Source: a virus. Taken from it: a DNA stretch of 57,080 bases. Location: positions 1-57,080 of the IMG/VR virus record IMGVR_UViG_3300034104_001340; one strand, 5' to 3'. A program made the position numbers and the translations under genes. Position 1 is the stretch's first letter. The number at the start of each line of letters is the position of its first letter. The notes below the pieces were generated by a model. It was given only the letters and a program-made list of their open reading frames with translations, did no database searches and was not told where the DNA came from. This document shows positions 18,466 to 36,865 of the stretch, in pieces.

Positions 18466-18466
18466 G

Positions 18467-21035: not shown

Positions 21036-21037
21036 AA

Positions 21038-21247
21038 TTACTCCGTTGGGACCCACTTACCCAGTGGGCAGCCTGCACTTTTACGAAACACTTTTACCGG
21101 CATTATGCAGCCGCATTCTTTGCACTGACCAGTGAGCTGGATGAGCCTCGGACACTGCTTGCACACTTCCAAGCGTGCTTTAGCCATCTGTCTCACCTCT
21201 AGGGTTAAGCCCGGCACATGCTGCTGCAGCCACTCAACCGCGCTCAT
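21038..21247 (-). CDS. Zinc-finger protein between TerL and portal
   Basis: 69 aa. Cysteines are arranged as CKQCPRL...GQCKECGCIM...SAGCPLGKW. The CxxC / CxxCGC / CPxGKW pattern is known from small zinc-binding proteins beside terminase genes in T4-like cyanophages and other aquatic phages. It overlaps the terminase stop by one base and ends two bases before the portal ATG. It may help packaging or late transcription; function is not established. Confidence 0.7.
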   Translation of the reverse strand: MSAVEWLQQHVPGLTLEVRQMAKARLEVCKQCPRLIQLTGQCKECGCIMPVKVFRKSAGCPLGKWVPTE

Positions 21248-22791
21248 CAGTAGTAACCTTCTCTCCGCCGTTTGTAGTAGCGCTGCTCTTCGGGCTCGTC
21301 ACTGGGCAACCGGAGGAACCCTCCCTGCCTGAACCGCAGCAACGCCATAATGCACGTATCCACATAGTCATCGTGCTCACCAGCCGGAAAGCTCGCCACC
21401 TCGTCGATGACCGCCTCCGCCCACGAGGTATTTGGTGCCCATACTATACCAGATGCAAATAGGTCTGATACTGCGTTGAGTCGGGCCATCTTGTTGTTGG
21501 GGTTGTTTGTCGTACCACGCACCGGTGTGTAGTCCTGTGCCGGTATACCCATGGCCCGCAGTTCGTAAATAAGGGGGGCACCGGAAGCTTTCTTCTCCAC
21601 GATGAGCGAGTCGGGCTTGTAGGCGTCGTACTGCTCTACTACCAGCCGCTTAAGTGTAGGGAACTCTGCTCGCTCCTTGATGGCGTTGAGCAGGATGAGG
21701 TTGGCTTGTTTCTCACCCTTGTCGTTGTTCTGGTAGAACACCCCCCACGTAGTACACGCCGAGAAGTCAGCCCGGTTGTTGGCCTCAAACGCCGTATCCC
21801 ATGCCTGCAGGATGTAGTCACAGTCCGGCGGGTCCTCTTCCTCCCACTGCTTCCACCACTCGCGCTTGATAATAGCGGAGGCATCCGAGGTGGGATTCTG
21901 CTGATACTGGGCCGTCCACTTGGCATTAGACAGGGTCTCCTTGAGCTTCTGCATGTCGTCGAGGGTCCAAAACTCGGGCCACAACGCGTTGCCAGAGGGC
22001 AAAATCGCCGGAAATTCAATGACTTCCCACGTATCCCCACCCCTCTGGGCCTCTGCTTTAAGCACTTGGGCTGTTAAGTCCCGCTGACTCCATCGGGTCA
22101 TGACCACGACTATGGCCCCGCCCGGCTGCAGACGCTGCCTTGGACCTGAGGTGTACCACTCATACACCTTATCGTAGACCTCTGGGTTAGTCTCAGCAGC
22201 CACAGCCTCCGCTTCCGAGTGCGGATCGTCGATTATCATGAGGTCGGCACCGCGACCGGTCATCGTACCGCCTACACCGATGGCAAAGTAGGTACCTTGC
22301 TTGTTGGTATCCCATCGCCCAGCAGCCTTGGAGTCTGCGGACAGCACCAACTCAGGGAAAATCTCCTTGTAAGCCTCGGAATCCACCAAGTTTCTTACTT
22401 TTCGACCGAACGTCTGTGCCAGCTCTGCCGTGTTGGACGACTGGATGACCTTTTTGTGCGGAAATTGCCCCAAAAACCACGCAGGCAGGATGTAGGAGGC
22501 AAATTCTGACTTGGTATGCCGGGGTGGCATGTTGATAATGAGGCGTTTCAGCTCTCCTCTGGCCACCCGCTCGAAGGCATTTGCCATGATGGCGTGGTGC
22601 CTACCGTGTATAAACGTAGGCCAGACGTGCTTGACGAAGGTGAGGAACCGATCTTTGCACTGCCCCTTGTGTTTCAAGGCTTCCAGCTTGGTCAACTGGG
22701 CTAGTAACAGCTCCTGCTCAGGCACGGAGAGTAACGAGAGGATGCTCGGGATGTCTTTTAGCGATATGTCGTTTAGTCGCTCAGACGTCAT
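21247..22791 (-). CDS. terL: Terminase large subunit
   Basis: 514 aa from the ATG at 22791, which overlaps the TerS stop and has GAGGAC upstream; a longer frame to 22926 reads out of frame through TerS and is not supported. The ATPase domain has an atypical Walker A at 88-96 (MPPRHTKSE), as in this terminase group, and Walker B at 184-190 (LMIIDDP). The RNase H-like nuclease has QAWDTAFE, VEKKASG and GEHDDYVDTC with its acidic residues intact. It cuts and pumps DNA into the procapsid through the portal. Confidence 0.92.
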   Translation of the reverse strand: MTSERLNDISLKDIPSILSLLSVPEQELLLAQLTKLEALKHKGQCKDRFLTFVKHVWPTFIHGRHHAIMANAFERVARGELKRLIINMPPRHTKSEFASYILPAWFLGQFPHKKVIQSSNTAELAQTFGRKVRNLVDSEAYKEIFPELVLSADSKAAGRWDTNKQGTYFAIGVGGTMTGRGADLMIIDDPHSEAEAVAAETNPEVYDKVYEWYTSGPRQRLQPGGAIVVVMTRWSQRDLTAQVLKAEAQRGGDTWEVIEFPAILPSGNALWPEFWTLDDMQKLKETLSNAKWTAQYQQNPTSDASAIIKREWWKQWEEEDPPDCDYILQAWDTAFEANNRADFSACTTWGVFYQNNDKGEKQANLILLNAIKERAEFPTLKRLVVEQYDAYKPDSLIVEKKASGAPLIYELRAMGIPAQDYTPVRGTTNNPNNKMARLNAVSDLFASGIVWAPNTSWAEAVIDEVASFPAGEHDDYVDTCIMALLRFRQGGFLRLPSDEPEEQRYYKRRREGYY

Positions 22792-23416
22792 CAACGTCGT
22801 CCTCTGACACCGCAGGGATGTCGAGTTCTTCCTTAAGCTGGTACAGGGACTCGTTGGGGTGCTCGAACACTCCAAGCTCCTCATCCAGCGCCGCCCCGTT
22901 AGGCACGGTCTCCACCACGCTGGCATTCATCAACCGCTTCACACGCTCTTTTATCTCATTTTCGAGATGAGCCGGGTCCTTATAGTTGATCGTAATCTCA
23001 CTACGGTCGGTAAACAGGCTGATGTCTTTGTGCTTACCGAGCAGCTCAAGCGCCTTAAGCTCGTACTTGGGGTCCCCGCAGTTGGCAAGCTCCATCAGCT
23101 TGTTGGTAATGGCAGCCCTAGCAGCGGCTACATCAAGGGCAAGTTGCGCACCGTACGTACGCAGGAAGGCCCCGGCAGCAAAGGCCGTGTTGGGCTGTGT
23201 AAGATTCTTGGTTTTGCCCTTCTCAACCACTTCTTTAAGCAGGGCTTGCTCGCGGGCAGTGTCTTCAGGACCAAGCGTAAGGGGTGCACCGAGTGCGTTC
23301 TGCAGCTCCGCCGTATTGGCAGCAAGAGTCATCTCGTCAAGCAGTGTGTCCACTGTTTCAGCAGAGAGGTCGTACGGGACCGGATGGTCCTTGGTGGGTG
23401 TGATGCTTACAGTCAT
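22781..23416 (-). CDS. terS: Terminase small subunit (probable)
   Basis: 211 aa from the ATG at 23416 (MTVSITPTKD). The centre is helical with ALDVAAARAAITNKLMELAN and KYELKALELLGKHKDISLFT, followed by RSEITINYKDPAHLENEIKE. I know this pattern from the gene before TerL in aquatic phages. It overlaps TerL by 11 bases. TerS recognises packaging DNA; its own promoter region is the G-run tract. No strong ribosome site is seen at this start, so the start is less certain. Confidence 0.7.
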   Translation of the reverse strand: MTVSITPTKDHPVPYDLSAETVDTLLDEMTLAANTAELQNALGAPLTLGPEDTAREQALLKEVVEKGKTKNLTQPNTAFAAGAFLRTYGAQLALDVAAARAAITNKLMELANCGDPKYELKALELLGKHKDISLFTDRSEITINYKDPAHLENEIKERVKRLMNASVVETVPNGAALDEELGVFEHPNESLYQLKEELDIPAVSEDDVDDV

Positions 23417-23448
23417 ATGCGCAAGTACTGGGTACTGATGGCGCGCAG

Positions 23449-23476
23449 TGTATATGGGGGGTGGGGGGCTTTGCAA
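23449..23476 (-). promoter_or_regulatory. Possible weak promoter for the late operon
   Basis: On the minus strand TTGCAA (23476-23471) and TATACA (23454-23449) are spaced 16 bp, 33 bp upstream of the TerS ATG. Both hexamers match the consensus only partly. It is the only sigma70-like pair I see between the G-run tract and TerS. An activator or phage-modified polymerase would be needed. Confidence 0.35.
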
Positions 23477-23700
23477 GCGCGGGTCCCTTGACGGGGGGTG
23501 TTTGCTGAGTTGAGGGGGGTGGGGTCTGGTGGAAAAAAGTGAGTTAGTGGGGGGAGGGGGGTTGCGTTGTAGCTACAAGAGGCTTGGCTTTGTAAAGTTA
23601 ACTTGGGGGGTGGGGTGGTGTGAGTGGGATAGTATGATAGATGGCGGGGGGGCTTTTGTCTGGGCAAAGGGGGGTGGGGTATGGGTGGGGTAAGCGCCCC

Positions 23701-23715
23701 CCTAACATTGTTATG
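23701..23715 (+). promoter_or_regulatory. 15-bp palindrome, copy 1 (imperfect)
   Basis: CCTAACATTGTTATG, with the core TAACATTGTTA intact and the right arm broken by one base. It lies 97 bp upstream of the first early gene. Confidence 0.7.
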
Positions 23716-23811
23716 GCGGAATCTACCAAAGCGCATATTGAATTACGATATGTGCTATAGTGGTTACGTCATCAAGTCGATGGCATCCAGCAACTAACTA
23801 AGGGTAAGCAC

Positions 23812-24387
23812 ATGAAAGCAGATAAGAAAGTAGTAGCAGCAGAACAGGCCGCCGTTGCACTTAGCACCATCCTTATGGCCACGCGTGAGGCGGCAATCAA
23901 TGAGGCGGCGAATCAGTATGGCGCGCTCCGCAAGTATGCAGCTGCATGCAACGAACTGTTCGGCATCCTGCCAACCTTTGATGGTAAGTATTGGTTTAAC
24001 GTGGACGGTAATGCTAAAGGTTCAGAGTTTACCGCCATTCATGCTGAATGGGCCTTGTTTCGCGAGGGACTGGTAAACAATAAGTGCAAGAATGTTAGCG
24101 TATACCGCAAGCGCCTCCGCGAACTTGCCTATGCTGAATCCGGCCTTGCACCTGAAACCACCACCGAAATTGAAGGCGCTGAGGGTGAAGGCGCTGAGGG
24201 TGAAGGCGCCGGAGACAAGGCCCGTCCCATCAAAGGCCGTATGCTTGAGGAGTTGGGCAAACTGTACAAAGCCCGCTTCAACGAAAAGTATGCTAGCGAG
24301 ATCACGGATGAAATCCGCGCCGCAACCAAGCACATTGAACAGGCGCTGCTGGCACTTGGCGCCAACCTGAATGATCTGGTGAAGTAA
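23812..24387 (+). CDS. First early gene, unknown function
   Basis: 191 aa, start supported by AAGGGTAAGCAC before the ATG. The N-terminal half is helical (VVAAEQAAVALSTILMATRE) with WFNVDGNAKGSEFTAIHAEW; an acidic linker repeats EGAEGEG; the C-terminal helix is ITDEIRAATKHIEQALLALG. No family is recognised. It is the first gene of the plus block and is followed by its own terminator, so it may be an abundant early product. Confidence 0.65.
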   Translation: MKADKKVVAAEQAAVALSTILMATREAAINEAANQYGALRKYAAACNELFGILPTFDGKYWFNVDGNAKGSEFTAIHAEWALFREGLVNNKCKNVSVYRKRLRELAYAESGLAPETTTEIEGAEGEGAEGEGAGDKARPIKGRMLEELGKLYKARFNEKYASEITDEIRAATKHIEQALLALGANLNDLVK

Positions 24388-24394
24388 CCACACC

Positions 24395-24420
24395 GGGGCC
24401 ACGGATGGCCCCTTTCCTTT
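24395..24420 (+). terminator. Rho-independent terminator after the first early gene
   Basis: GGGGCC (24395-24400), loop ACGGAT, GGCCCC (24407-24412), then TTTCCTTT. It begins 8 bases after the stop codon. The T-tract is interrupted, so termination may be partial. Confidence 0.7.
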
Positions 24421-24423
24421 ACC

Positions 24424-24438
24424 CCTAACATTGTTACC
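24424..24438 (+). promoter_or_regulatory. 15-bp palindrome, copy 2
   Basis: CCTAACATTGTTACC, intact core with the last two bases changed. It lies between the terminator and the next ATG (24456), in the short leader of that gene. Confidence 0.7.
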
Positions 24439-24455
24439 CCATTGGAGTTATACCC

Positions 24456-24872
24456 ATGTTTACACTTAACCAACCTGTATACGATAGCAGCTATAACCTT
24501 GTTACAGTCGAAGGCGCTACCGTTGATCTTTCCACCGTTGCCGCATGGTTTGCCGACTATGGCATCGACCGTTTCATGGTTTGCTTTGATGGCCACTTGG
24601 CGCAGGTTGAAGTATCTACCCACCCCAGTGTGCAAACCTGCTTGCAAGTAACTGTGCGCCGGGATGATACCGGGGAACCGATTGTAAGCATCAAGTACTA
24701 CATGGAGCTTCCTGTATCTCAGGCGCGCATTGAGTCTGCGCAGCACATTGCGCAGCATGCCGCATACATTGGTAGGTACTTTGCCACGCCGCCCACCGCT
24801 GAGAACCTCGACTCCATCGCGTACCACGCCCGCAAGATTGCGCACCTGCTTGACCAAATGCCCGCCAAGTAA
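24456..24872 (+). CDS. Early protein of unknown function
   Basis: 138 aa. The N-terminal half alternates strands (MFTLNQPVYDSSYNLVTVEG, FMVCFDGHLAQVEVS), and the C-terminal half is two helices (QARIESAQHIAQHAAYIGRY, LDSIAYHARKIAHLLDQM). No motif is recognised. A GGAG ribosome site precedes the ATG. The gene is bracketed by copies of the 15-bp palindrome and by terminators on both sides, so it forms its own transcription unit. Confidence 0.6.
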   Translation: MFTLNQPVYDSSYNLVTVEGATVDLSTVAAWFADYGIDRFMVCFDGHLAQVEVSTHPSVQTCLQVTVRRDDTGEPIVSIKYYMELPVSQARIESAQHIAQHAAYIGRYFATPPTAENLDSIAYHARKIAHLLDQMPAK

Positions 24873-24878
24873 CCCACC

Positions 24879-24893
24879 CCTAACATTGTTACC
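24879..24893 (+). promoter_or_regulatory. 15-bp palindrome, copy 3
   Basis: CCTAACATTGTTACC, identical to copy 2, lying between the stop codon at 24872 and the terminator hairpin. Confidence 0.7.
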
Positions 24894-24900
24894 CCTTCCA

Positions 24901-24926
24901 GCCCGGCCATTGTGCCGGGCTTTTTT
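24901..24926 (+). terminator. Strong Rho-independent terminator
   Basis: GCCCGGC (24901-24907) pairs with GCCGGGC (24914-24920), followed by six T. Seven GC-rich base pairs and an uninterrupted T-run make this the clearest terminator of the plus block. Confidence 0.9.
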
Positions 24927-24956
24927 GTGCCTGCGATTTCCTTACGTTGTACTCGC

Positions 24957-24971
24957 CCTAACATTGTTAGG
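24957..24971 (+). promoter_or_regulatory. 15-bp palindrome, copy 4 (perfect)
   Basis: CCTAACATTGTTAGG. With flanks it is the 19-mer GCCCTAACATTGTTAGGCC, whose exact reverse complement lies at copy 5. Confidence 0.75.
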
Positions 24972-24993
24972 CCTTGCGCCATGCAGCCCGCGC

Positions 24994-25061
24994 GCAGAGA
25001 CCAGTGACTTCGCAGGTGAGTGGGTTTCGGTGCTGCATGGTGTGCAGAGACCAGTGACTTC
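24994..25061 (+). repeat. 18-bp direct repeat
   Basis: GCAGAGACCAGTGACTTC occurs at 24994-25011 and 25044-25061, 50 bp apart, nearly five helical turns. Both copies lie between the inverted palindromes at 24957 and 25088. No reading frame crosses them. Confidence 0.75.
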
Positions 25062-25087
25062 ACCCGTGGTAGGACTGCGCAACGAGG

Positions 25088-25102
25088 CCTAACAATGTTA
25101 GG
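25088..25102 (-). promoter_or_regulatory. 15-bp palindrome, copy 5 (perfect, opposite orientation)
   Basis: CCTAACAATGTTAGG, the reverse complement of copy 4; the identity extends to 19 bp. It is followed at once by GCTTGACA. Confidence 0.75.
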
Positions 25103-25152
25103 GCTTGACAATGACGACCCACACACCCCTTTTACATAGTGCAAATCAAGGA

Positions 25153-25503
25153 CTTACGCGAAGTTTGCGAATCGTTCTCACCTAGGCGTAAGAAAGTTAG
25201 GAAGCTAAAAACGGGTTCTTACGCGCTAAGTTGTTGATTTGGCTGAGGAATTGGTAATGTTAGAATGTAAGACAAAAAAAAGGGTATGAAACCTTACGTG
25301 TCAAGTTGTGCAACTTAGCACTGTCAATATATACAGTGTAAAGTCTCGCAGGGGGGTTATATACTTTTATCTTAAAAAGATGACATTCTAACATTACACA
25401 TTTTTACATAAGTAAATCAACAACTTGCAACCGAAAACGACGTAAGAAAACGCGTAGATTTTGCCCTCTTTTTCTTACACTATTACGCAAATTCTCTTAC
25501 GCG
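25153..25503. repeat. Nested inverted repeats sharing one centre (candidate replication origin)
   Basis: Six pairs of inverted arms share nearly the same centre (25,325-25,333): CACTGT/ACAGTG (25319, 25333), a 15-bp pair GTAATGTTAGAATGT at 25254 and its complement at 25383, a 13-bp pair AAGTTGTTGATTT at 25228 and 25414, TTCTTACG/CGTAAGAA (25216, 25441), GTAAGAAA/TTTCTTAC (25188, 25471), and TTTGCG/CGCAAA (25164, 25486). The 15-bp arms contain a half-site of the 15-bp palindrome. The region is non-coding and AT-rich. Such a long dyad fits an origin or a protein-assembly site. Confidence 0.65.
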
Positions 25504-25625
25504 CACTCCTGCCTCCACCTCGAACCCTATTCCTTACGTTGTAGTCTGATATACTGATTCACTTCCTTACGTTGTACTACACCGTAAGCTTTTTCCGTAT
25601 TCTGCAAACCGACCTCACAGAACAC

Positions 25626-25654
25626 TTGATCCATTCAGCTTTTTAGAGTATAAT
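25626..25654 (+). promoter_or_regulatory. Sigma70-type promoter of the early operon
   Basis: TTGATC (25626-25631), a 17-bp spacer, then TATAAT (25649-25654), a perfect -10 box. It lies about 90 bp upstream of the first gene of the long early operon, and palindrome copy 6 falls in the transcribed leader, where bound protein could block elongation or initiation. Confidence 0.75.
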
Positions 25655-25707
25655 ATACAAAATGGAGTTATATCTGTACAGAACGCGATCTACCCAGTGC
25701 CAACCCC

Positions 25708-25722
25708 CCTAACAATGTTAGG
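25708..25722 (-). promoter_or_regulatory. 15-bp palindrome, copy 6 (perfect)
   Basis: CCTAACAATGTTAGG, about 55 bp downstream of the TATAAT box and 22 bp before the ATG at 25745. An operator position. Confidence 0.75.
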
Positions 25723-25744
25723 CCCAACAACGAGGAGCAACGAG

Positions 25745-25894
25745 ATGAGCAACGACAAGACACTAGCAGAGCAGCTGCTGTTCCAACTGCAATTCATGGG
25801 CATGATGCTGATGGTTGGCAGACAAGAGGAGGCCGACACGGCATACCAGAAAGCACTCACTCTTGCAAAAGAGCTTATCAAGGCGGGGCACTAA
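25745..25894 (+). CDS. Small early helical protein
   Basis: 49 aa from the ATG at 25745, which has GAGGAG upstream; the in-frame extension to 25697 would read through the palindrome and has no ribosome site. The sequence is a helical hairpin (LAEQLLFQLQFMGMMLMVGR, then a second helix ending LAKELIKAGH) with a short Met-rich hydrophobic run. No family is recognised. First gene after the early promoter. Confidence 0.6.
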   Translation: MSNDKTLAEQLLFQLQFMGMMLMVGRQEEADTAYQKALTLAKELIKAGH

Positions 25895-25896
25895 CC

Positions 25897-26112
25897 ATGA
25901 ACGACAACAGCACAGCAGTGTGCAGCGACTGCGGCGACACCTACAGCAAGGAGCGCTGGAAGCTTGGGTACTACACCTGCCACCCATGCGGCGAGGAGCA
26001 TGCAGTCAACGTGCGAGCCGGGTGGTGCATAGCGCCGATGAACAAGAGCAACTACATCCTGATAACCGACAGAGCAGTGCTGGCACAACTCAACCCCAAG
26101 AGGACAACGTGA
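25897..26112 (+). CDS. Small zinc-binding early protein
   Basis: 71 aa. CSDCGDTYSKERWKLGYYTC, then HPCGEEHA, give two CxxC pairs of a zinc ribbon. The C-terminal half (SNYILITDRAVLAQLNPKRT) resembles a short alpha/beta segment common in small phage proteins of this type. The stop overlaps the next start as TGATG. Likely a nucleic-acid- or protein-binding accessory; not identified further. Confidence 0.6.
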   Translation: MNDNSTAVCSDCGDTYSKERWKLGYYTCHPCGEEHAVNVRAGWCIAPMNKSNYILITDRAVLAQLNPKRTT

Positions 26113-26375
26113 TGAAAGTATATGTACTGCTCGAAAGTAAATACGGAGGCTCGCTGGAGTTAGCAGGTGTCTACGCCACCCGAGGTGCAGCCGGTGAGGC
26201 TGTGATTGACTCGGTACAGGAGATGCGAGGTTGCGAATACAACTGCGAGGTGCAAGAGCGCGAGGTAGTCGAAGAAAAAGACCGTTGTATAGAGTGCGCG
26301 GTTGAGTTGGTTGACGGCGGGGGTTGGGGGTACTGCCCCACATGCGCGCCTCCGTGGAGGAAGTGTGATGAGTAG
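26112..26375 (+). CDS. Small early protein with C-terminal zinc ribbon
   Basis: 87 aa from the ATG at 26112, overlapping the previous stop. The N-terminus (MKVYVLLESKYGGSLELAGV) is a strand-rich segment, and CIECAVEL ... YCPTCAPPW forms two CxxC pairs. The alternative, longer frame upstream overlaps two genes and is not supported. Function unknown; it is the third small gene of a coupled trio. Confidence 0.6.
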   Translation: MKVYVLLESKYGGSLELAGVYATRGAAGEAVIDSVQEMRGCEYNCEVQEREVVEEKDRCIECAVELVDGGGWGYCPTCAPPWRKCDE

Positions 26376-26432
26376 AACAAAACAACGCGAGATTCGGTAA
26401 ACCGAAACTAACTAACCAAGAGGAGCAACAAC

Positions 26433-27296
26433 ATGGGCTTTGGAATAGACGGACGTGACCTACCACTACTGCGTAGCTATGCGCGGGCGAAAGTGCAGTA
26501 CGACAGCATCGTGCCGATCAGGGGTACTAACAATGTTAGGCCACTAGGTGACAGGCGCAAGCATCACCAGCGCATAGAGGTAGCCAAGCGCAACGGAGCA
26601 GGTGCAGCAGGGTTGGCGTGCGTGCTGTACAGCACGGCGTGTGTGACTTACTACGAGGACGGGACGCTACATCTTGCACACGGCGGCTACATATCGCAAA
26701 GCACCTGCACATTCATCAACCGTGTAGCACCTGTCTCAGGTGTGCGGATGGACAAGCAGCGAGACTGCCTCGTGGTGCGCATCAATGGCGGTGAGTACAA
26801 GTGCGGCAAGGATGGGCTGTGGCTTAAGTATGACGAGACAGCCACGGGTTACAAGCCAATAGACCCCGAGCCGTTCAAGGTCACACTTGTCAACCGCGTT
26901 GCTATGCGCGAGGTGAAGAAGCAGTACGCTGCCTTCATGCAGTATGCCGTAGGTCTGGGCAAGCTGACGCAGTGGGACAGGCCTGAGAAGGAGGGCCACC
27001 GTTGGATAGATGAGGGGGACTTGCTCAACTGTATGCGGGGTGAGGACATAGATCAGTGGGCGTGGGCATACCCGAGACTCTTGCTGTCAGCAGGCTCGTA
27101 CCGCCAGAGCTTCGACTACCAAGCGGGGTACTGGAGGCGCGGGGACTCCCTGTGGGTGTGTGACAAGAAGCGACTCGATGCCCAGCTGACCCACATGGTG
27201 AAGAAGGCATATGCAAGCGAAGTGCTCGTGCGTGAGACGCTACCACTAGGTGTGCATAAGAAAGATGCAAACTATAGGTACAACCGGGAGGTGTGA
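26433..27296 (+). CDS. Early protein of unknown function, 287 aa
   Basis: Start supported by AGAGGAGCAACAAC. The N-terminal 35 residues (DLPLLRSYARAKVQYDSIVP) are followed by a beta-rich middle with GTLHLAHGGYISQSTCTFIN and several Cys, and a Trp-rich C-terminal half (GHRWIDEGD, QWAWAYPRL, GYWRRGDSLW). No known domain is recognised. A copy of the 15-bp palindrome lies inside the gene and encodes TNNVRP. Confidence 0.6.
   Translation: MGFGIDGRDLPLLRSYARAKVQYDSIVPIRGTNNVRPLGDRRKHHQRIEVAKRNGAGAAGLACVLYSTACVTYYEDGTLHLAHGGYISQSTCTFINRVAPVSGVRMDKQRDCLVVRINGGEYKCGKDGLWLKYDETATGYKPIDPEPFKVTLVNRVAMREVKKQYAAFMQYAVGLGKLTQWDRPEKEGHRWIDEGDLLNCMRGEDIDQWAWAYPRLLLSAGSYRQSFDYQAGYWRRGDSLWVCDKKRLDAQLTHMVKKAYASEVLVRETLPLGVHKKDANYRYNREV
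26526..26540 (-). promoter_or_regulatory. 15-bp palindrome, copy 7 (inside a gene)
   Basis: ACTAACAATGTTAGG, one arm base changed. It lies in codons 32-36 of the 287-aa gene. Confidence 0.7.
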
Positions 27297-27297
27297 G

Positions 27298-27426
27298 ATG
27301 AGCAACTGGAAACTGATAGCCCTAACATTGTTAGTCAGTATGGCGTTAGCGGCGGGCATTGCATGTGCAGTGTTCGTACTGTTCGCATTGGGTGACAGCA
27401 TCTTTGCTGTAGGGAAGGGGATGTAA
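27298..27426 (+). CDS. Small single-span membrane protein
   Basis: 42 aa (MSNWKLIALTLLVSMALAAG, then AVFVLFALGDSIFAVGKGM). After WK it is a continuous hydrophobic helix, so it is an inner-membrane peptide with a short N-terminal tail. It starts two bases after the previous stop with GGGAGGTGTG upstream. The palindrome copy at 27321 encodes ALTLLV in a different frame from the other genic copies. Function unknown; it directly precedes the MoxR/VWA cassette. Confidence 0.6.
   Translation: MSNWKLIALTLLVSMALAAGIACAVFVLFALGDSIFAVGKGM
27321..27335 (+). promoter_or_regulatory. 15-bp palindrome, copy 8 (inside a gene)
   Basis: CCTAACATTGTTAGT, last base changed. It is read in a different codon frame from copies 7, 9 and 10, so protein constraint does not explain it. 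Confidence 0.7.
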
Positions 27427-27460
27427 CGGGGAGTTAAGTAGTAAAAGCAGTACCTAAACC

Positions 27461-27480
27461 AATGTAGGGTTTCCTACATT
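27461..27480. promoter_or_regulatory. 8-bp inverted repeat upstream of the MoxR gene
   Basis: AATGTAGG (27461-27468), four-base spacer GTTT, CCTACATT (27473-27480). It lies in the 74-bp gap before the MoxR-like gene, 20 bp from the ATG. No T-run follows in either direction, so it is more likely an operator or a leader hairpin than a terminator. The sequence differs from the 15-bp palindrome. Confidence 0.6.
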
Positions 27481-27500
27481 CAACCAACGAGGATACAAGC

Positions 27501-28577
27501 ATGACCGCACAATCAATCGCAACTGAGCGTTACACCGTAACTCTGGCACAGGCAGCGAGCCTTATCCTTGCTTGCCCGGGCAACAGATACTTCCTGCGTG
27601 GCGAGCCGGGCATCGGCAAGTCGAGCATCATCAAGGAGCTTCAAGCCAAGACAGGATATCGCGCAGCATACATCGACTGCCCCAACATGGACTTGGGTGA
27701 CATAGCAATGCCGGTGATCGACCATGAGAGTAGGACAACCAAGTACTACCCCAACGGGCGCTTTCAGCTGCAACACGGCGAGCCAGTCATCATCATGCTG
27801 GACGAGTTCACCAAGGCCGCTGACCCGGTGAAGAACATGCTGCACCCACTACTCGAAGTGCATAACCCGCGCTTGGGTGATGTGAGTCTGCCCGCAGGTA
27901 GCATCGTGTTCCTGACTGGTAACTTAGACAGTGACGGCGTGGGTGACTCCTTGCTTGCACATAGCAAGATGCGCGTAACCGAGGTAGAGGTCGGTAAGCC
28001 TGACTCCGACCAATGGTTGCAGTGGGCCTCGGGCGCTGGCATCGACCCGGCTGTGATGGCGTGGGTGTACCGCAACCCCCATGCGCTTGCTTCATACCGT
28101 GACGGTGACCAAGACGGCAACCCCTACATCTTCCATCCGAACAAGGTGCAAGGTGCTGTAGTCACGCCGCGTACGCTGGAGCTTGGGTCTAACATTGTTA
28201 GGGCACGTGAGAACTTCGATGCGGGGGCATTGCAGGCTGCGCTTGTGGGTACGATCGGTGCCGCAGCTGCGGGTAGCTTGGCTGCCTTCATTGCACATCA
28301 GGACTCACTGCCGCCGTACGAGCAGATCATCAAGCATCCTGATACGACCAAGGTGCCCGAGGAGCCGGGTGCGCTTAGCGTTCTTGTCTTTGGTGCCATC
28401 GAGAGGATCAAGCATAGAGACGAGGTCACGGCGCTGCTCAAGTACTTCGGGCGTGCAGATGTCGAGTGGCAGACTATCTTCAACGTGACGCTGGTGCGCA
28501 ACAAGACCAAGGCTAGCTTCGGATACAACTGCAAGGCGTTTGCTGATTGGGTCACCAAGAATCAGGACTTGCTGTAA
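27501..28577 (+). CDS. MoxR-like AAA+ ATPase
   Basis: 358 aa. Walker A at 34-41 (GEPGIGKS), Walker B at 97-102 (IIMLDE), sensor-1 Asn at 141 (VFLTGN). The order and the FTKA after DE fit the MoxR branch of AAA+ proteins, which act with VWA-domain partners as chaperone-like remodelling machines or in metal insertion. The partner follows directly (28600). A palindrome copy lies at codons 230-234. The dyad at 27461 and ACGAGGATACA precede the start. The target is unknown. Confidence 0.85.
   Translation: MTAQSIATERYTVTLAQAASLILACPGNRYFLRGEPGIGKSSIIKELQAKTGYRAAYIDCPNMDLGDIAMPVIDHESRTTKYYPNGRFQLQHGEPVIIMLDEFTKAADPVKNMLHPLLEVHNPRLGDVSLPAGSIVFLTGNLDSDGVGDSLLAHSKMRVTEVEVGKPDSDQWLQWASGAGIDPAVMAWVYRNPHALASYRDGDQDGNPYIFHPNKVQGAVVTPRTLELGSNIVRARENFDAGALQAALVGTIGAAAAGSLAAFIAHQDSLPPYEQIIKHPDTTKVPEEPGALSVLVFGAIERIKHRDEVTALLKYFGRADVEWQTIFNVTLVRNKTKASFGYNCKAFADWVTKNQDLL
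28188..28202 (+). promoter_or_regulatory. 15-bp palindrome, copy 9 (inside the MoxR gene)
   Basis: TCTAACATTGTTAGG, first base changed, encoding SNIVR. Confidence 0.7.
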
Positions 28578-28599
28578 CCACAACTACGAGGAACAAAAC

Positions 28600-29874
28600 A
28601 TGAACGCAGCGGTTGAGCTGGACAAAGTAGAACGCAAGTACAAGCGGGTGCGCATCTCCATCATGCGTGATGCAACCTTCATGGCGGTAGGGCCGGTGAT
28701 GCGGCTCGGCAAGCAGTACATCGTGGATGACTTCCCGACAGCGTGTACTGACGGTGTGAACGAGAGATACGGGCGTGCCTTCGTGCGCGCATTGGAGGAG
28801 AAGCCCCTCGGGTTTGTGATATTGCATGAGACTTACCACAAGCTGTGCAGGCACATCAGTATCTATCGCAAGCTGTGGGAGGAGGATGCATGGCGAGCCA
28901 ACATGGCGACTGACTATTGGATCAACCTGAAGCTGGACAAGCTGAGCAAGACCTGCAACCTGCTCGAGATGCCACGCTACACCGAGGCACTGCTGGCACT
29001 GCTCACACCCAAGCAGCGGGCTGCGCTTGATGCAGAAGGTAAGGGGCTGGGGGATTACTTCGGCTTACTTGACTACAAGTATGACGGCATGACTGTGGTT
29101 GAGATATTTAGGGCACTGAAAGAAGAACAGAAGGAGCGCGGGGAGGGTGGTGAAGGCGAAGGCCCGAGCGGCTTCGATGACCACGACTGGGAAGGTGGTG
29201 ACTCCATACCCAAGGAGGAGCAGGAGAAGATGCGCGAGGAAGTTGAGCGTGCTATCCGTGAGGGCCAGATGCTTGCCAAGAAGTACGGCGCAGACTCGGC
29301 AGGTGCAGAGTTGGGCTTCGATGATCTGCTTAAGCCCAAGGTGGACTGGCGTGCGCAGCTGCGTGACTTCGTGCGTAGCACATGCCGCAAGATGGAGCAG
29401 AGCACATGGCGTAGGCCCAACAGGCGCTTCCTGCACCAAGGCATCATCATGCCCACCATGCAAGGCAAGCAGATCAAGTCGCTCGGTGTATGCGTGGATG
29501 CGTCAGGCTCGATGTTCTGTGGTAGCCCTACGCCGTTCAAGCGTGTGATGAGCGAGATTGATGGGCTGACCAAGCAGTTGGGTATCGACACGCTGCACTT
29601 GATCTACTGGGATGGTGCTGTGTGCGCACATGAGACGTACACGCCGACATCGGTAGGTGGCTGGCTCAAGGCAACGCAGCCGCGTGGGGGTGGGGGTACT
29701 GACCCCGCGTGTATCTCCCCGTGGCTTAAGGAGAAGGGCATCAAGCTGGATGCAGCTGTGGTGCTGACTGATGGCGAGGTGCCGGGTTGGGGGCAGTGGA
29801 CGGTGCCGGTGCTGTGGCTCATTACGGGCAAGGCAACGGCGAGTGTGGGTAAGACTATTCGTGTGGAGGACTGA
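28600..29874 (+). CDS. DUF2201-type protein: metallopeptidase-like plus VWA domain
   Basis: 424 aa from the ATG at 28600 (ACGAGGAACAAAAC upstream). Residues 76-80 are HETYH, an HExxH zinc site, with RANMATDYWINLKL as the usual following helix. After an acidic Glu/Gly-rich linker, a VWA-like domain begins near 292 with the MIDAS motif DASGS at 300-304 and later TDGEVPG. This is the DUF2201 arrangement. With the MoxR ATPase it forms the classic MoxR-VWA pair. Whether it cleaves a substrate or only binds metal cannot be seen. Short gap (22 bp) implies one operon. Confidence 0.85.
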   Translation: MNAAVELDKVERKYKRVRISIMRDATFMAVGPVMRLGKQYIVDDFPTACTDGVNERYGRAFVRALEEKPLGFVILHETYHKLCRHISIYRKLWEEDAWRANMATDYWINLKLDKLSKTCNLLEMPRYTEALLALLTPKQRAALDAEGKGLGDYFGLLDYKYDGMTVVEIFRALKEEQKERGEGGEGEGPSGFDDHDWEGGDSIPKEEQEKMREEVERAIREGQMLAKKYGADSAGAELGFDDLLKPKVDWRAQLRDFVRSTCRKMEQSTWRRPNRRFLHQGIIMPTMQGKQIKSLGVCVDASGSMFCGSPTPFKRVMSEIDGLTKQLGIDTLHLIYWDGAVCAHETYTPTSVGGWLKATQPRGGGGTDPACISPWLKEKGIKLDAAVVLTDGEVPGWGQWTVPVLWLITGKATASVGKTIRVED

Positions 29875-29876
29875 GT

Positions 29877-30128
29877 ATGAAAGTGAAGATGAACATAGGT
29901 GGGCGTAGCTTGGTGGTGCCAATGGAGACCGCCGAGGAGATCATGGAGCTTGCGTTCCGTTACGGAGAGGAGTGTGAGCAGAAGTGGAACCGCGCTGTGG
30001 ATGGCGTAGAGGCTTACTACTCCACGCATGTGTACGAGATCAACCCATCGGAGTTCAAGTTCTCGCTGGACGTTATTACAGAAGGGCAGTATCAGATGTA
30101 CAAGTTGGCAGGCAAACCTAAAAACTAA
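29877..30128 (+). CDS. Small protein in the MoxR/VWA cassette
   Basis: 83 aa, starting two bases after the VWA gene stop. MKVKMNIGGRSLVVPMETAE is a strand-helix start; the middle is acidic and the end is VITEGQYQMYKLAGKPK. No family is recognised. Tight spacing suggests it works with, or is coexpressed with, the VWA protein. Confidence 0.6.
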   Translation: MKVKMNIGGRSLVVPMETAEEIMELAFRYGEECEQKWNRAVDGVEAYYSTHVYEINPSEFKFSLDVITEGQYQMYKLAGKPKN

Positions 30129-30142
30129 ACGAGGATACACGT

Positions 30143-30490
30143 ATGAAAGACGGTCGCAAAAACAAGACGTTCAAAACTGTATGCAGTCAGAACATGAAGT
30201 CCCTGTGGAGCACTATGGCACCAGAGGAGCGAGCTGTACGGCTGGAGAAGATGCGCATAGCAAGAGACGTTGCACGCGCAGCGAGGAAAGCTGCGAAGCA
30301 AGAGGTCGCAGTTGTTCAAGTAGAGCAGCTGGCGTTGCCGTTGGTGCAGCAGGAGTACACGCCATCCACTCACGCGATGGAGGAAGCAATGGCAGCACTA
30401 GACATCCTTGTACAGGTAACGAGTACCGTGCTTGGGGTGACACTGAACCAACAACAGGCCGCTGAGTTCTGGGCCAACAGACTGAAGTAA
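30143..30490 (+). CDS. Small basic helical protein
   Basis: 115 aa. The first 65 residues are basic (GRKNKTFKTVCSQNMKSLWS, then VARAARKAAKQEV) and probably bind nucleic acid; the rest is a helical pair ending LNQQQAAEFWANRLK. The leader AACGAGGATACA is identical to those of the MoxR gene and the 283-aa gene. Function unknown. Confidence 0.6.
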   Translation: MKDGRKNKTFKTVCSQNMKSLWSTMAPEERAVRLEKMRIARDVARAARKAAKQEVAVVQVEQLALPLVQQEYTPSTHAMEEAMAALDILVQVTSTVLGVTLNQQQAAEFWANRLK

Positions 30491-30500
30491 GGAGAAGCAC

Positions 30501-30890
30501 ATGGGGTACAGAAGTAGCATCAAAGCGGCGTTCTACCCGCAGAAAAACGAGGACTTTGCGCTTATCAAACTGTGGGTGGACGAGCACATCATGAGGACGC
30601 AAGACTTTTGGCCCTACCGCATAGCGAAGCGGAGTGGGTCTAGGTTCATCTTGTTCGAGATTGATGACGTTAAGTGGTACGACAACTTCCCAGAGGTGAT
30701 TGCTTTCAACAATGCGTTAGTCGAGTTCGAGGATATGTTCGGAAATGGAAAAGACACTGACGCACCTAGGGCTTTTATGGAGTTTATCCGACTTGGTGAA
30801 GACCCTACTGATGTAGAAGAACGCAGCTCGGATAGCTTTGAAGTGCTGCAGCTGGTGCGGCACATGAACGTAGACGAAGACGTAGAGTAA
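30501..30890 (+). CDS. Conserved phage protein of unknown function
   Basis: 129 aa. It begins MGYRSSIKAAFYPQKNEDFA and has FILFEIDDVKWYDNFPEV and ALVEFEDMFG, an alpha/beta pattern I have seen in phage proteins without a known role. The C-terminus is acidic (MNVDEDVE). It has a GGAG ribosome site and no membrane or metal motif. Confidence 0.6.
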   Translation: MGYRSSIKAAFYPQKNEDFALIKLWVDEHIMRTQDFWPYRIAKRSGSRFILFEIDDVKWYDNFPEVIAFNNALVEFEDMFGNGKDTDAPRAFMEFIRLGEDPTDVEERSSDSFEVLQLVRHMNVDEDVE

Positions 30891-30915
30891 CAACCAACTA
30901 AACGAGGATACACAT

Positions 30916-31767
30916 ATGAGCATTGCAGCAAGCGCAGTACTGGTAAAGCTGTCCATTAGCACGTGGACGGCCAACAAGATCGACCGGGTGCAGACTGACC
31001 GTGTACTGGCAGACAACAACGCCAGCAACAGGGCAGCGCAGGTACGCAAGAACCTCATGGCAGGTACGCAGAAGATCAAAGGCCTAGTGGACTTTGCGCA
31101 GCACTGTCGAAATGAGAATTACAGGCTCACGTTGCCATGGGAGGACAGGGGCAACCGCCTGCTGCCAACCAGCTTGTTCCTCGACTACAAGGCCAAGATG
31201 AATGGGTACAAGAACCAGTTCATCCAGATGCGTGGCGACATCGCGTACAACTACGATGCCTTGCAGCAGACGGCGCGCAACTACCTCGGGGATATGTACG
31301 ATGCAGCAGACTACCCCGGTGTGGACGAGGTGATTAGTAAGTACGATTGGCAGCTGACGTTCAGCCCGGTGCCCGATGCAGGCCACTTCTACCTCGACAT
31401 CCCGGCCAGCGAGCTGGAGGAGGTGAAGCAGTCACTCAACGTGGAGAACGACCTGCGACTTAAGGACGCAACGCGCACGGCGTGGGACAGACTGCACACA
31501 CTGTTGGAAGGCATGACGGGCAAGCTGGCTGAGACTGACGAGGGCAAGACCAAACGCTGGCACGATAGCTTTGTGACCAACGCATCGGAGTTGTGCTCCA
31601 TGCTTACGCACCTCAACGTAACCCGAGACCCGGAGCTTGAGCGTGCAAGACGTATGCTTGAGGCTTCCATTGCTGGCGTGCAAGTTGATACACTCAAGGT
31701 ATCGCCTGTCGCAAGAGAGAACCTCAAGGGCAAGGTGGACGACATCATCAAACAGTTCGAGTGGTGA
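30916..31767 (+). CDS. DUF3150-like protein
   Basis: 283 aa, mostly helical. Recognisable stretches are LVKLSISTWTANKIDRVQTD at the start, LVDFAQHCRNENYRLTLPWE, and a C-terminal region with many charged helices. I associate this with the DUF3150 family, which in bacteria and mobile elements is often encoded with MoxR and VWA genes. Here it lies 3.4 kb after the MoxR gene in the same strand run, with an AACGAGGATACA leader. Assignment is from memory of the family's pattern and is moderately certain. Confidence 0.6.
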   Translation: MSIAASAVLVKLSISTWTANKIDRVQTDRVLADNNASNRAAQVRKNLMAGTQKIKGLVDFAQHCRNENYRLTLPWEDRGNRLLPTSLFLDYKAKMNGYKNQFIQMRGDIAYNYDALQQTARNYLGDMYDAADYPGVDEVISKYDWQLTFSPVPDAGHFYLDIPASELEEVKQSLNVENDLRLKDATRTAWDRLHTLLEGMTGKLAETDEGKTKRWHDSFVTNASELCSMLTHLNVTRDPELERARRMLEASIAGVQVDTLKVSPVARENLKGKVDDIIKQFEW

Positions 31768-31771
31768 GTAC

Positions 31772-32230
31772 ATGATGGAGTATGAGTTCGTAATACAAGA
31801 CATAGACACTGTGATGGGGGGCTTGAAAGCAACGCTCCCTGACGACTTCCACCGCGCTATGGACATGCGCGTGGTGCAGATGGCTGAGCACTTCTACACC
31901 GTAGCTGAGCTACTGGAGTTACCCGACAAGGATGTCGAGGCGCTGGCTGAGCAACTAAGTATCGCACTACTCAACAAGCAGGTGAAGGATGCGTGGTACT
32001 CAGGCAAAGGCAAGGTGTTCATCCGTGGGCCTGAGCTGTGGAGTGTGTATATACCAAGAGCACCCACTAGCAGGCAGGCTATATACAAGCCAGACGAGGT
32101 GCCGACTGAGTGGCGCAGGCAGTTGGGTATGCTACAGCTATTGGAAGGGCGGCGTACTCTGCTGAAGGACTGTGGCTACCGACATGACGACAAGGTGTTT
32201 TACTTACTGGAGGCAGAAGATGGAGCTTAA
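31772..32230 (+). CDS. Early protein of unknown function, 152 aa
   Basis: Starts at the first of two adjacent ATG codons at 31772, after GGTGAG; a longer frame from 31637 overlaps the DUF3150-like gene and is not supported. Helical N-terminal half (VVQMAEHFYTVAELLELPDK) and a basic C-terminal half with PTEWRRQLGMLQLLEGRRTL. No family recognised. The stop overlaps the next start by 11 bases. Confidence 0.6.
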   Translation: MMEYEFVIQDIDTVMGGLKATLPDDFHRAMDMRVVQMAEHFYTVAELLELPDKDVEALAEQLSIALLNKQVKDAWYSGKGKVFIRGPELWSVYIPRAPTSRQAIYKPDEVPTEWRRQLGMLQLLEGRRTLLKDCGYRHDDKVFYLLEAEDGA

Positions 32231-32468
32231 GAACAGTGCAGGGTACTCAGTTAATGTGGGTTCGCTGGTCAGAGATACGGCGGGCGTGGAGTATCGAGTT
32301 GAGGATATAACCGCTACGCAGGTGCACGTAGTGACAACTAATCCCCCGCGCAGACAGCGCAGGTGCAAGCCAGCTGAGTTGGGGTTGGTAGTGGCGTCAC
32401 ACACCGCAGACAGGACTAAGTTTGACTTAGCGCGGCAGAAGCTGCGCAGTTATTGGGAGAGCGAATAA
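32220..32468 (+). CDS. Small early protein
   Basis: 82 aa from the ATG at 32220, preceded by GGAGGCAGAAG. It has an SH3-like small beta pattern (YSVNVGSLVRDTAGVEYRVE, then VHVVTTNPPRRQRRCKPAEL) that would fit a KOW-like or chromo-like barrel, then a helical basic tail. This is only a shape comparison. It is one base upstream of the ribbon-helix-helix gene. Confidence 0.55.
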   Translation: MELKNSAGYSVNVGSLVRDTAGVEYRVEDITATQVHVVTTNPPRRQRRCKPAELGLVVASHTADRTKFDLARQKLRSYWESE

Positions 32469-32469
32469 C

Positions 32470-32664
32470 ATGGCGCGAGGTAAGCAGAAGGAGCCAACGT
32501 GGGTGCATATCAACATCCGCGTTCCACAAGGGGTGTACGAGTACTTCTCGCAGTCTCCGAATATGTCCGAGGCTATACGTGAAGTACTAAGCGCATACGT
32601 TAATACCCCTAACAATGTTAGGGGGCCCACACAACAGGAGGCAGAAGATGGCGACGACACCTGA
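32470..32664 (+). CDS. Ribbon-helix-helix DNA-binding protein (candidate regulator)
   Basis: 64 aa. THVHINIRV-type strand (WVHINIRVPQGVYEYFSQ) is followed by a helix, a turn at PNMSEAIREVL and a second helix, the layout of Arc/MetJ/CopG repressors, with alternating strand residues that would contact the major groove. A perfect copy of the 15-bp palindrome lies within codons 47-51. RHH dimers bind inverted repeats, so this protein is a reasonable ligand for the palindromes. The fold assignment is by eye. Confidence 0.55.
   Translation: MARGKQKEPTWVHINIRVPQGVYEYFSQSPNMSEAIREVLSAYVNTPNNVRGPTQQEAEDGDDT
32608..32622 (-). promoter_or_regulatory. 15-bp palindrome, copy 10 (inside the RHH gene)
   Basis: CCTAACAATGTTAGG, perfect, followed by GGGG. 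It is the last copy on the map and encodes PNNVRG. Confidence 0.75.
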
Positions 32665-32944
32665 AGGCAAAGTAAAAGCCAAGGTGGTCAAGCTACTCAA
32701 GGAGCGGGGGGTGTACTACTTCTTCCCCGCTACCTTTGGGATGGGGCGATCCGGTGTGCCCGATGTAGTGTGCTGCCGAGGAGGGTGGTTCCTTGCTGTT
32801 GAGTGCAAGGCTGGTAAGAACAAACCCACGGCGTTGCAGGAGAGGGAGATAGAGGCGATACGCGCAGCAGGTGGCACGGCGCTTGTTATCAACGAGGACA
32901 ACTTACATGAACTGGAGGCACACTTAGATGAACCAAGGTATTGA
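32648..32944 (+). CDS. VRR-NUC nuclease
   Basis: 98 aa from the ATG at 32648 (ACAGGAGGCAGAAG upstream, overlapping the RHH gene by 17 bases). The signature GVPDVVCCRGGWFLAVECKA carries the PD and ExK catalytic residues of the VRR-NUC branch of PD-(D/E)XK nucleases, followed by ALQEREIEAIRAAGGTALVI. It is a stand-alone minimal domain, as found in phages near polymerases. Likely processes branched DNA during replication or recombination. Confidence 0.85.
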   Translation: MATTPEGKVKAKVVKLLKERGVYYFFPATFGMGRSGVPDVVCCRGGWFLAVECKAGKNKPTALQEREIEAIRAAGGTALVINEDNLHELEAHLDEPRY

Positions 32945-33170
32945 GATATTGCTGGCCCGCATGGACAGCCACCCGCAGGAGTTTGACAGCGAGGCTATGA
33001 CCGGACGCTATGGGCGCTGGACGCATACCGTAGACCTAGTGCTTGCCATAGGTGGTAGCTTCACTGACGAGGAGAGGAACGCGCTTAATAAAAAACTACG
33101 TGAGTTGGAGCGTGAGCGGTTCACACGGCGGGTGATGAAGAAGCTGTTGGACGAGCCGGAGGGTAAATGA
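32928..33170 (+). CDS. Small protein between VRR-NUC and polymerase
   Basis: 80 aa. MNQGIEILLARMDSHPQEFD is followed by a charged helical C-terminus ending KKLLDEPEGK. It overlaps both neighbours (17 and 4 bases), so it is translated with the polymerase. It is probably a replication accessory; I know similar small proteins before phage PolA genes but not their role. Confidence 0.6.
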   Translation: MNQGIEILLARMDSHPQEFDSEAMTGRYGRWTHTVDLVLAIGGSFTDEERNALNKKLRELERERFTRRVMKKLLDEPEGK

Positions 33171-34993
33171 ACATACTGACCATCGACTTCGAGACCTACT
33201 ACGACAAGCAGTTCAGTCTCTCCAAGCTAACAACCGAGGAGTACCTCCGTGACACGCAGTTCGAGGTGATCGGTGTGTCGGTGCAGCTCAATGACGGTGA
33301 GCCTGAGTGGTTCTCCGGCACTATGGAAGATACGAGCGAGTGGCTGCGCAAGTTCGACTGGGCCAGCAGTATAGCTATAGCGCACAACGCTATGTTCGAC
33401 CTAGCCATACTTAACTGGCACTTCGACCTGCGACCCAAGCGCATTGTGGACACGCTGTCTATGGCAAGGGCTATTCACACGATAGAAGTAGGCGGGAGCC
33501 TCGCTGCGTTGGTGGAGCATTACAAGCTTGGGAAGAAGGGCACCGAGGTAATCAACGCGCTGGGTAAGCGGCGACTGGGCTTCACACCCGAAGAGCTTGA
33601 TGCCTATGGTGAGTACTGCAAGAACGACACAGCCCTGACCTATAAGCTGTTCTGCAAGTTGATGGAGCCGGGCTTCTCGGTTGATGAGCTGCGCTTGATT
33701 GACGTGACGGTGCGCATGTTCTCGGAGCCGGTGTTGCAGATAGATACACCACTGTTGGAAGCCCATTTGATCGGGGTCAAGGAGAAGAAGGAGAAGCTGC
33801 TGAGTAAGGCGCTGGTGGACAAGGACGACCTGATGAGCAACCCGAAATTTGCGGCACTGCTGACTCTGCTTAGCGTAGTACCACCAATGAAGACCAGCCT
33901 GACCACGGGCAAGGAGACCTACGCCTTCTCCAAGCAGGACGAGGAGTTCATGGTGTTACTGGAGCATCCAGATGTGCTGGTGCAGTCGCTGGTATCGGCT
34001 CGGCTGGGGCTGAAGTCTACGTTGGAAGAGACACGCACTGAGCGGTTCATCAACATTGCAAAGCGTGGGTCGCTCCCTATCCCGTTGAAGTACTACGCAG
34101 CGCACACCGGACGCTGGGGAGGCGATGACTCGGTGAACATGCAGAACTTGCCGCGTGGTGGGACGCTGAAGAACGCACTGATGGCACCGCCCGGGTATGT
34201 ACTGGTTGACTCTGACTCCTCGCAGATTGAGGCGCGCACGCTGGCGTGGTGGGCTGGACAAGACGATCTCGTTGCCGCATTCGAGCGTGGTGACGATGTG
34301 TATAAGATCATGGCGTCTGCTATCTACGGCAAGGTGGAGGCAGACATATCCAAGGATGAACGGTTCGTAGGTAAGACCACTATCTTGGGCGCGGGGTATG
34401 GGATGGGGCACAAGAAGTTCCATACGCAACTGAAAAACTTCGGCGTTGATTTTCCCCTTGCTGAGTGCAAGCGCATCATCAGTGTGTACCGTAGTACCTA
34501 CGAAGCTATACCGGAGCTGTGGGAGCAGGCGCAGTCAGTGTTGTATGCGATGCTCGAAGATAAATCTGCACCGCTCGGTAAAAAAGGGGTAGTTTTTGTT
34601 GAGGGTAAGCGCGGAATTCGCTTGCCTAACGGGCTTTACATCAAGTACCCTAACCTTCGGCGCGTCAAGAACGATGAGGGTAGGTCTGAGTTTGTATACG
34701 ACACCAAGAGGGGTCGAGCGGTCATACCAAACAGGATATACGGCGGTAAAGTTGTAGAGAACGTAGTGCAGGCGCTGGCTCGTATTGCTGTAGGTGAGCA
34801 GCTGCTGCGCATTGCCAAGAAGTACAAAGTTGTGATGACGGTACATGACGCAGTTTGTGCGTTGGTGCCTGAAGTAGAGAAGGAGCGCGGCCTTGAGTAC
34901 GTTGAGCTGTGCATGAAGATACGCCCCCAATGGGCACCAGATTTACCACTGAATTGCGAGGCTGGCGCTGACCCGCGTTACGGGCAGTGTTAG
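33167..34993 (+). CDS. polA: Family A DNA polymerase with 3'-5' exonuclease
   Basis: 608 aa. The exonuclease has D7 and E9 (IDFETYYD), HNAMFDLAI and the YCKND motif. In the polymerase, motif A has D348 (LVDSDSSQIEAR), the O-helix reads RFVGKTTILGAGYG, and motif C has D561 (TVHDAV). R399, K403 and Y411 of the O-helix are intact. The residue at the position of E. coli Phe762 is Leu407. There is no 5'-3' exonuclease domain. It should copy the phage genome with the AEP/DUF927 primase-helicase at 43795 and the SSB-like protein at 42639. Length is typical of T7-like phage polymerases without long insertions. Confidence 0.95.
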   Translation: MNILTIDFETYYDKQFSLSKLTTEEYLRDTQFEVIGVSVQLNDGEPEWFSGTMEDTSEWLRKFDWASSIAIAHNAMFDLAILNWHFDLRPKRIVDTLSMARAIHTIEVGGSLAALVEHYKLGKKGTEVINALGKRRLGFTPEELDAYGEYCKNDTALTYKLFCKLMEPGFSVDELRLIDVTVRMFSEPVLQIDTPLLEAHLIGVKEKKEKLLSKALVDKDDLMSNPKFAALLTLLSVVPPMKTSLTTGKETYAFSKQDEEFMVLLEHPDVLVQSLVSARLGLKSTLEETRTERFINIAKRGSLPIPLKYYAAHTGRWGGDDSVNMQNLPRGGTLKNALMAPPGYVLVDSDSSQIEARTLAWWAGQDDLVAAFERGDDVYKIMASAIYGKVEADISKDERFVGKTTILGAGYGMGHKKFHTQLKNFGVDFPLAECKRIISVYRSTYEAIPELWEQAQSVLYAMLEDKSAPLGKKGVVFVEGKRGIRLPNGLYIKYPNLRRVKNDEGRSEFVYDTKRGRAVIPNRIYGGKVVENVVQALARIAVGEQLLRIAKKYKVVMTVHDAVCALVPEVEKERGLEYVELCMKIRPQWAPDLPLNCEAGADPRYGQC

Positions 34994-35166
34994 CCGCTTG
35001 GGGTGCCTAGCGCCCCGTGCCCCAGCCGGAGGTGGGCATCGTGTGAAAAACACCGGCAGTGTGCGATGTTATGCCCTCGTGGTCACTTAGGTGACCTGCA
35101 TATAGACAGGCGCACACCGACTAGCCCACGTCACGGGCCCCTTTTACTTAACTGACGAGGTGCACT
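34994..35166 (+). other. 173-bp non-coding gap with short hairpins
   Basis: No gene is seen. It contains GGTCAC/GTGACC (35081-35096) with a four-base loop and a weaker GC-rich stem around 34998-35013. No T-run follows either. The GC-rich start contrasts with the flanking genes. It could be a small RNA, a processing site or a weak terminator; it does not resemble a tRNA. Confidence 0.4.
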
Positions 35167-36108: not shown

Positions 36109-36136
36109 TGAAACCAAACGAACAGGAGAAAGGGGT

Positions 36137-36582: not shown

Positions 36583-36593
36583 GTTAAAACCAC

Positions 36594-36737: not shown

Positions 36738-36785
36738 CCAATACAGGCACACGGATGTGCCACTAATTTATGGAGGGCAACGACA

Positions 36786-36863: not shown

Positions 36864-36865
36864 CA

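Follow-up and report, generated by a model that had tools for sequence, protein, structure and literature searches.

The ten palindromes distributed over the early gene block of the window, by which we mean the whole 57,080-base viral record analyzed here, are best explained as dispersed double-stranded DNA operators of a single phage protein, the product of g191. On the comparisons described below, we place at roughly 0.6 the probability of this explanation, in which the sites would serve as stoperator-like elements over the early operons. Among its candidate explanations the original prediction had named dispersed operators bound by a single phage protein, and that choice is well supported by the conserved positions of the sites, by nucleotide-level selection within a gene and by covariation with g191; the silencing or elongation-control system also named there may apply.

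Counting the exact core TAACAWTGTTA (W = A or T) across the record returned ten copies spanning 23703-32620 and none outside this interval, and the reversed pattern, used as a control, returned 0 copies. From composition alone, ~0.004 copies of the 11-mer would be expected across the 14 kb that surround the early block. The count confirms the earlier claim of ten exact copies absent elsewhere, with far fewer than one expected by chance, although the positions given then lie 2 lower than the core starts in Table 1 because they included the flanking CC. The invariant portion of the ten sites is this 11-bp core, whereas the full 15-bp palindrome CCTAACAWTGTTAGG occurs at only four of them (24957, 25088, 25708 and 32608). 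Four cores fall within ORFs (26528, 27323, 28190 and 32610), one in a different frame, as had been described. Confinement to the early block also holds, but restriction to the start of that block does not, since the sites cover ~8.9 kb and are densest near the g191 end. Copies with one mismatch are present at 24494-24504 (TAACCTTGTTA) and at 16167-16177 (CAACATTGTTA).

Table 1. Palindromic sites (11-bp cores) and neighboring features of the early block, in window coordinates.
Feature	Position	Strand	Context
Site 1, TAACATTGTTA	23703..23713	+	Upstream of the likely g191 promoter; gap separating the early block from the divergent late block
Likely g191 promoter, extended -10 TGCTATAGT	23753-23761		Our reading of the sequence
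g191, 191 aa	23812..24387	+	First early gene; proposed site-binding protein
Site 2	24426..24436	+	Between g191 and the next gene
Site 3	24881..24891	+	Directly after the end of ORF 24456-24872 (stop codon); closely followed by an intrinsic terminator
Predicted intrinsic terminator	24900..24921	+	g191 unit
Site 4, full 15-bp form	24959..24969	+	Past the terminator
Site 5, full 15-bp form	25090..25100	-	Edge of non-coding region
Predicted sigma-70 promoter, TTGATC-17-TATAAT	25626..25654	+	Main early operon; consensus match only
Site 6, full 15-bp form	25710..25720	-	Ahead of the first gene of the main early operon
Site 7	26528..26538	-	Within ORF 26433-27296
Site 8	27323..27333	+	Within a small membrane-protein-like ORF (about 27298-27426)
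Site 9	28190..28200	+	Within the gene for the MoxR-type ATPase (27501-28577)
Site 10, full 15-bp form	32610..32620	-	3' end of ORF 32470-32664, upstream of a VRR-nuclease-like ORF

The genes of the record include terminase, portal, PolA, primase, an SNF2-type helicase, a MoxR ATPase and a vWA protein, with late genes running leftward of 23.5 kb and early genes rightward from 23.8 kb. Site 6 lies ~50 bp downstream of the expected start of the best predicted early promoter, and a homologous pre-terminator, pre-VRR counterpart of site 10 is present in relatives. The divergent blocks are separated by a strongly G-rich, strand-biased non-coding stretch (23460-23700). A second non-coding stretch, AT-rich (24938-25579), carries TTCCTTACGTTGTA at 24938, 25530 and 25563, more copies of TTACGCG and a 25-nt repeat at 24994/25044; these repeats possibly mark an origin or promoter cluster. 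The MoxR ATPase and vWA genes form a pair at 27501-29874, and distant MoxR homologues occur in cultured N4-like phages. Further away, a 2041-aa protein (46825-52950, minus strand) matches DarB-like antirestriction and LPD39 and, weakly, the part of the N4-type virion RNA polymerase (vRNAP) that follows the catalytic core.

Relatives were sampled through the MoxR protein, which gave 80 IMG/VR loci at 54-59% identity, about half of which carry the 11-mer at 7-20 copies. An exact scan with the 15-mer returned at least 120 stretches, many holding 5-14 copies. Inspection of records of 57-66 kb reveals 7-26 copies of the 11-mer, all within the homologous 9-14 kb early block, with no sites in the remaining ~50 kb. 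Seventeen sites, for example, fall within 28083-40709 of a 62.3 kb record, 44964-53835 of a 60.5 kb record and 17971-28551 of a 63.4 kb record, and the 26 sites of a 65.2 kb record occupy one circular stretch of ~12 kb; this last record, the one with the most sites, also encodes two g191 paralogues. Replication iterons were considered and rejected, as the sites are not tandem copies clustered at an origin but are scattered across about 10 kb with a median spacing of ~620 bp. Megablast of a 14 kb query against INPHARED gave no match, and a literature search found no paper connecting these sequences to a phage. A scan of the genome collection for hosts yielded a single MoxR relative, on a contig of 6,951 bases assigned to a Bacillota MAG, which may be phage DNA binned in error.

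The sites are spaced more evenly than random placement gives (CV 0.67 versus 0.94), and many identical, evenly spread sites would suit a centromere-like or condensing array, in which the phage genome is compacted or segregated by a protein that bridges them. The dispersed KorB operators of plasmid RK2 provide a precedent for such an arrangement (PMC11790492). Searches of the records of 14 relatives, which may be incomplete, nevertheless found no integrase, resolvase or ParA-type ATPase (PF00589, PF00239, PF13614), the 71 members of the g191 family gave no convincing Pfam match, ParB families included, and the late 50 kb lacks sites. The partition-like array entertained in the original prediction is disfavored on these grounds, and we regard a condensing role as unlikely. 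Site density drops with distance from g191, with spacing widening accordingly, in 27 of 27 genomes.

Loci lacking the 11-mer carry the same half-site with another spacer, or else TGACA half-sites. The forms are TAACA-2-TGTTA at 7-19 copies, TAACA-3-TGTTA (16 copies in locus L088) and TGACA-2-TGTCA at 9-11 copies, each with the same flanking C/G as the 1-bp class and, in whole records, the same confinement to the early block. There are thus four spacer classes, one of which dominates in each genome with 7-19 copies. A few 2-bp genomes retain 2-5 one-bp sites, and L019 and L055 retain three 3-bp sites, as expected of intermediates. Homologous sites with differing spacers are found at the same positions: the site at the vWA start codon reads ggagcTAACAAATGTTAGAagaacg in L055, ggggTAACAAAATGTTAGaggaacg in L088 and ggacTAACAATGTTAGAGgaacg in L049, and the same holds at the start of the zinc-finger gene, at the end of vWA and at the pre-terminator site upstream of the VRR gene. 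Spacers therefore changed in place, through single-base indels at many sites.

The site within the MoxR gene allows selection on nucleotides to be separated from selection on protein. The residues SNIV are invariant in all 81 sequences, yet in all 43 one-bp-class genomes they are encoded as TCT AAC ATT GTT (followed by AGG, AGC or AAG), with the site at the same codon position, whereas in 30 of the 38 other genomes the codons break the site (TCG AAC ATT GTC CGG, for example); the site is kept in seven two-bp-class genomes and one unclassified genome of the 38. The codon comparison shows selection at the nucleotide level inside a gene. The sequence comparisons as a whole show sites that are conserved, positionally fixed and confined to the early block, with a spacer length that changes with the version of g191.

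A rival reading is an RNA signal, namely a hairpin in early mRNAs that serves as a translational operator or processing site for a phage RNA-binding protein. The sense strand would fold into a stem of 5-6 bp and a loop of 3-5 nt, a start codon just past a Shine-Dalgarno sequence lies within 46 of 394 distinct one-bp sites and 48 of 266 two-bp sites, and AA outnumbers TT on the sense strand in the 2-bp class. Strand bias was set aside as proof of RNA function, being largely explained by the start codons inside sites, with part of the AA excess in the 2-bp class remaining beyond that explanation. The pattern of variation points the other way. The 1-bp class comprises 522 exact and 23 distinct one-mismatch sites, and the tolerated mismatches are A to T (positions 5 and 2), which would break the stem, while changes of the G:U type are rare. 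The central base of one-bp sites outside start codons is nearly balanced (A 182, T 152), the close relatives L030 and L044 carry AA and TT spacers at one place, and sites also occur in mid-gene and upstream of the likely g191 promoter. Because of the A-to-T tolerance, the balanced center and the flipped spacers, duplex DNA is favored, and we consider an RNA-level signal decidedly unlikely. Two observations still count against DNA operators with class-specific spacers: ~12-18% of sites hold a gene's start codon, which a translational role would explain too, and some 2-bp genomes still carry 3-5 one-bp sites.

The candidate cognate protein is g191, which is present in 98 loci; whenever a site-rich locus extends over the g191 slot, a homologue occupies that position. 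All 73 loci with type I g191 (..NPSxxWxRVR..) have the 1-bp spacer. Of the 22 loci with type II (WxRVKxASG), 20 have the 2-bp spacer and the remaining two are mixed, and distinct versions accompany the 3-bp and TGACA-2-TGTCA classes. On matched rows, the g191 tree requires three class changes, the minimum for four states, versus 5-7 on each of seven other trees (MoxR, vWA, zf71, RHH, g283, terS and g287), a comparison drawn from only ~4 independent switches, two of them on well supported branches, which is too few for significance in a sign test. When all broad ORF families were scanned, no other followed spacer class as well as g191. The combined MoxR and vWA tree, partly unsure because of long branches (the window and L087), rejects a single clade of 2-bp genomes (AU p = 3e-19) and groups L088 (3 bp) with L019 and L055 (2 bp) with full support. 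The random loss of sites among related phages that would have spoken against the original prediction was not observed: loss of sites accompanies loss of g191, and a differing g191 accompanies conversion of the sites in place. Another protein occupies the g191 slot in four loci, of which L021, L037 and L078 have 1-3 sites and L075 has five. No alternative dispersed motif was found in L020, L021, L037 or L027, all genomes without sites. In L075 (1042-1640) and L078 (6512-7075) we observed two clusters of 19-bp tandem repeats (TGCCTATTTTTTAAGCAAC) with few palindromes, which are maybe a different regulator's own sites.

A second candidate binder is the small protein encoded at 32470-32664, whose sequence, in our reading, resembles ribbon-helix-helix (RHH) repressors, and whose gene contains site 10 and is found in nearly all loci. 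Genomes that lack sites (L020, L021 and L027) nonetheless carry the gene, the presumed DNA-contacting strand TSLRL is constant across spacer classes, and its tree requires 5-6 class changes against three for g191. Because it occurs where sites are missing and fails to track spacer class, this protein was rejected as the binder, a role we judge very improbable for it. Scarcely credible is a role for the sites as vRNAP hairpin promoters of the kind used by N4-like phages: the MoxR ATPase is shared with distant N4-like phages, hairpins with stems of 5-6 bp and loops of 3 nt look like N4 early promoters and the 2041-aa protein weakly matches the vRNAP family, but that match spans 2027-2303 of the 3406 profile positions, mostly past the catalytic core known for N4, gene-start signals are the only directional element in the site logo, and both orientations occur inside one operon.

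AlphaFold2 models of g191 (pLDDT 81 and 83) predict a mainly helical N-terminal domain, in which a turn joins helices 71-89 and 95-110, followed by an acidic linker and a helical C-terminal domain. Judged from this predicted layout of helices only, the pair would be helix-turn-helix-like. Queries by tblastn with the window, type I and type II proteins gave no match to phages in INPHARED, nor did type I to plasmids. The 71 family members had no PHROG match, and nothing convincing was returned by NCBIfam or PADLOC. A profile search against PDB sequences gave chance matches only, and comparison of two models by Foldseek and VIA-align found nothing above the level common for helical proteins.

Given palindromic sites that coevolve with the protein, g191 would very probably bind as a homodimer, each monomer contacting one TAACA half-site, with the geometry of the dimer in all likelihood setting spacer length. 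Once made, the protein would plausibly occupy 10-20 sites that fall within early genes, at their starts and in the gaps between them. Site placement, the density gradient and the analogy to stoperators (PMC6550527, PMC9283540) suggest that bound g191 may damp early transcription, both through promoter occlusion and by blocking elongating RNA polymerase. For a phage that appears not to integrate, the outcome could be to shut off the early genes or to exclude a second phage of like kind; early shut-off or superinfection control during lytic growth is preferred over lysogeny or partition because the 14 possibly incomplete records of relatives yielded no integrase, resolvase or ParA.

Cluster A mycobacteriophages such as L5, Bxb1 and TipsytheTRex carry 20-30 dispersed repressor sites, in and between genes, whose sequence is clade-specific and tracks the cognate repressor (PMC6550527, PMC9283540). 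As in the L5-type system, many identical sites are scattered here in and between genes, and their motif covaries across phages with its putative cognate protein. Whereas stoperators are asymmetric, oriented with transcription and bound by a monomer, the present sites are palindromic, occur in both orientations and would be bound by a dimer, and their classes differ mainly in spacer length. At the sequence level, the PHROG and Pfam results also set g191 apart from the L5 repressor family, and the possibly incomplete records of the relatives contrast with temperate cluster A phages in the integration and partition genes sought above. KorB of RK2 similarly acts as one protein on a short palindrome dispersed over a genome, with long-range control (PMC11790492), but it is a ParB-family CTP clamp acting with KorA, whereas g191 gave no convincing match to a ParB model and ParA was not found. 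MtvA of the Pseudomonas plasmid pPAD8 binds the identical 11-mer, site 1 in Table 1, as double-stranded DNA in EMSA (PMC11826091); it is an antitoxin of AbrB/MazE fold, unrelated to the mainly helical protein predicted for g191, and the shared 11-mer is probably a coincidence.

A fuller reading, which we hold tentatively and at somewhat less than even odds as a whole, is that g191 represents a new family of regulators, in apparently non-integrating phages, that act on dispersed palindromic operators, in which specificity may reside mainly in the length of the spacer (1, 2 or 3 bp), and the whole set of 10-20 sites, start-codon and in-gene sites included, may be rewritten in place upon regulator change. 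Each g191 version is predicted to bind only its own spacer length. If this is true, sister phages would fall into mutually blind regulatory types, and an abundant uncultured phage group would harbor a second, unrelated stoperator-like system. It would also offer a rare natural record of protein-DNA coevolution, in which 10-20 sites at fixed positions shift their spacer with one protein in several lineages.
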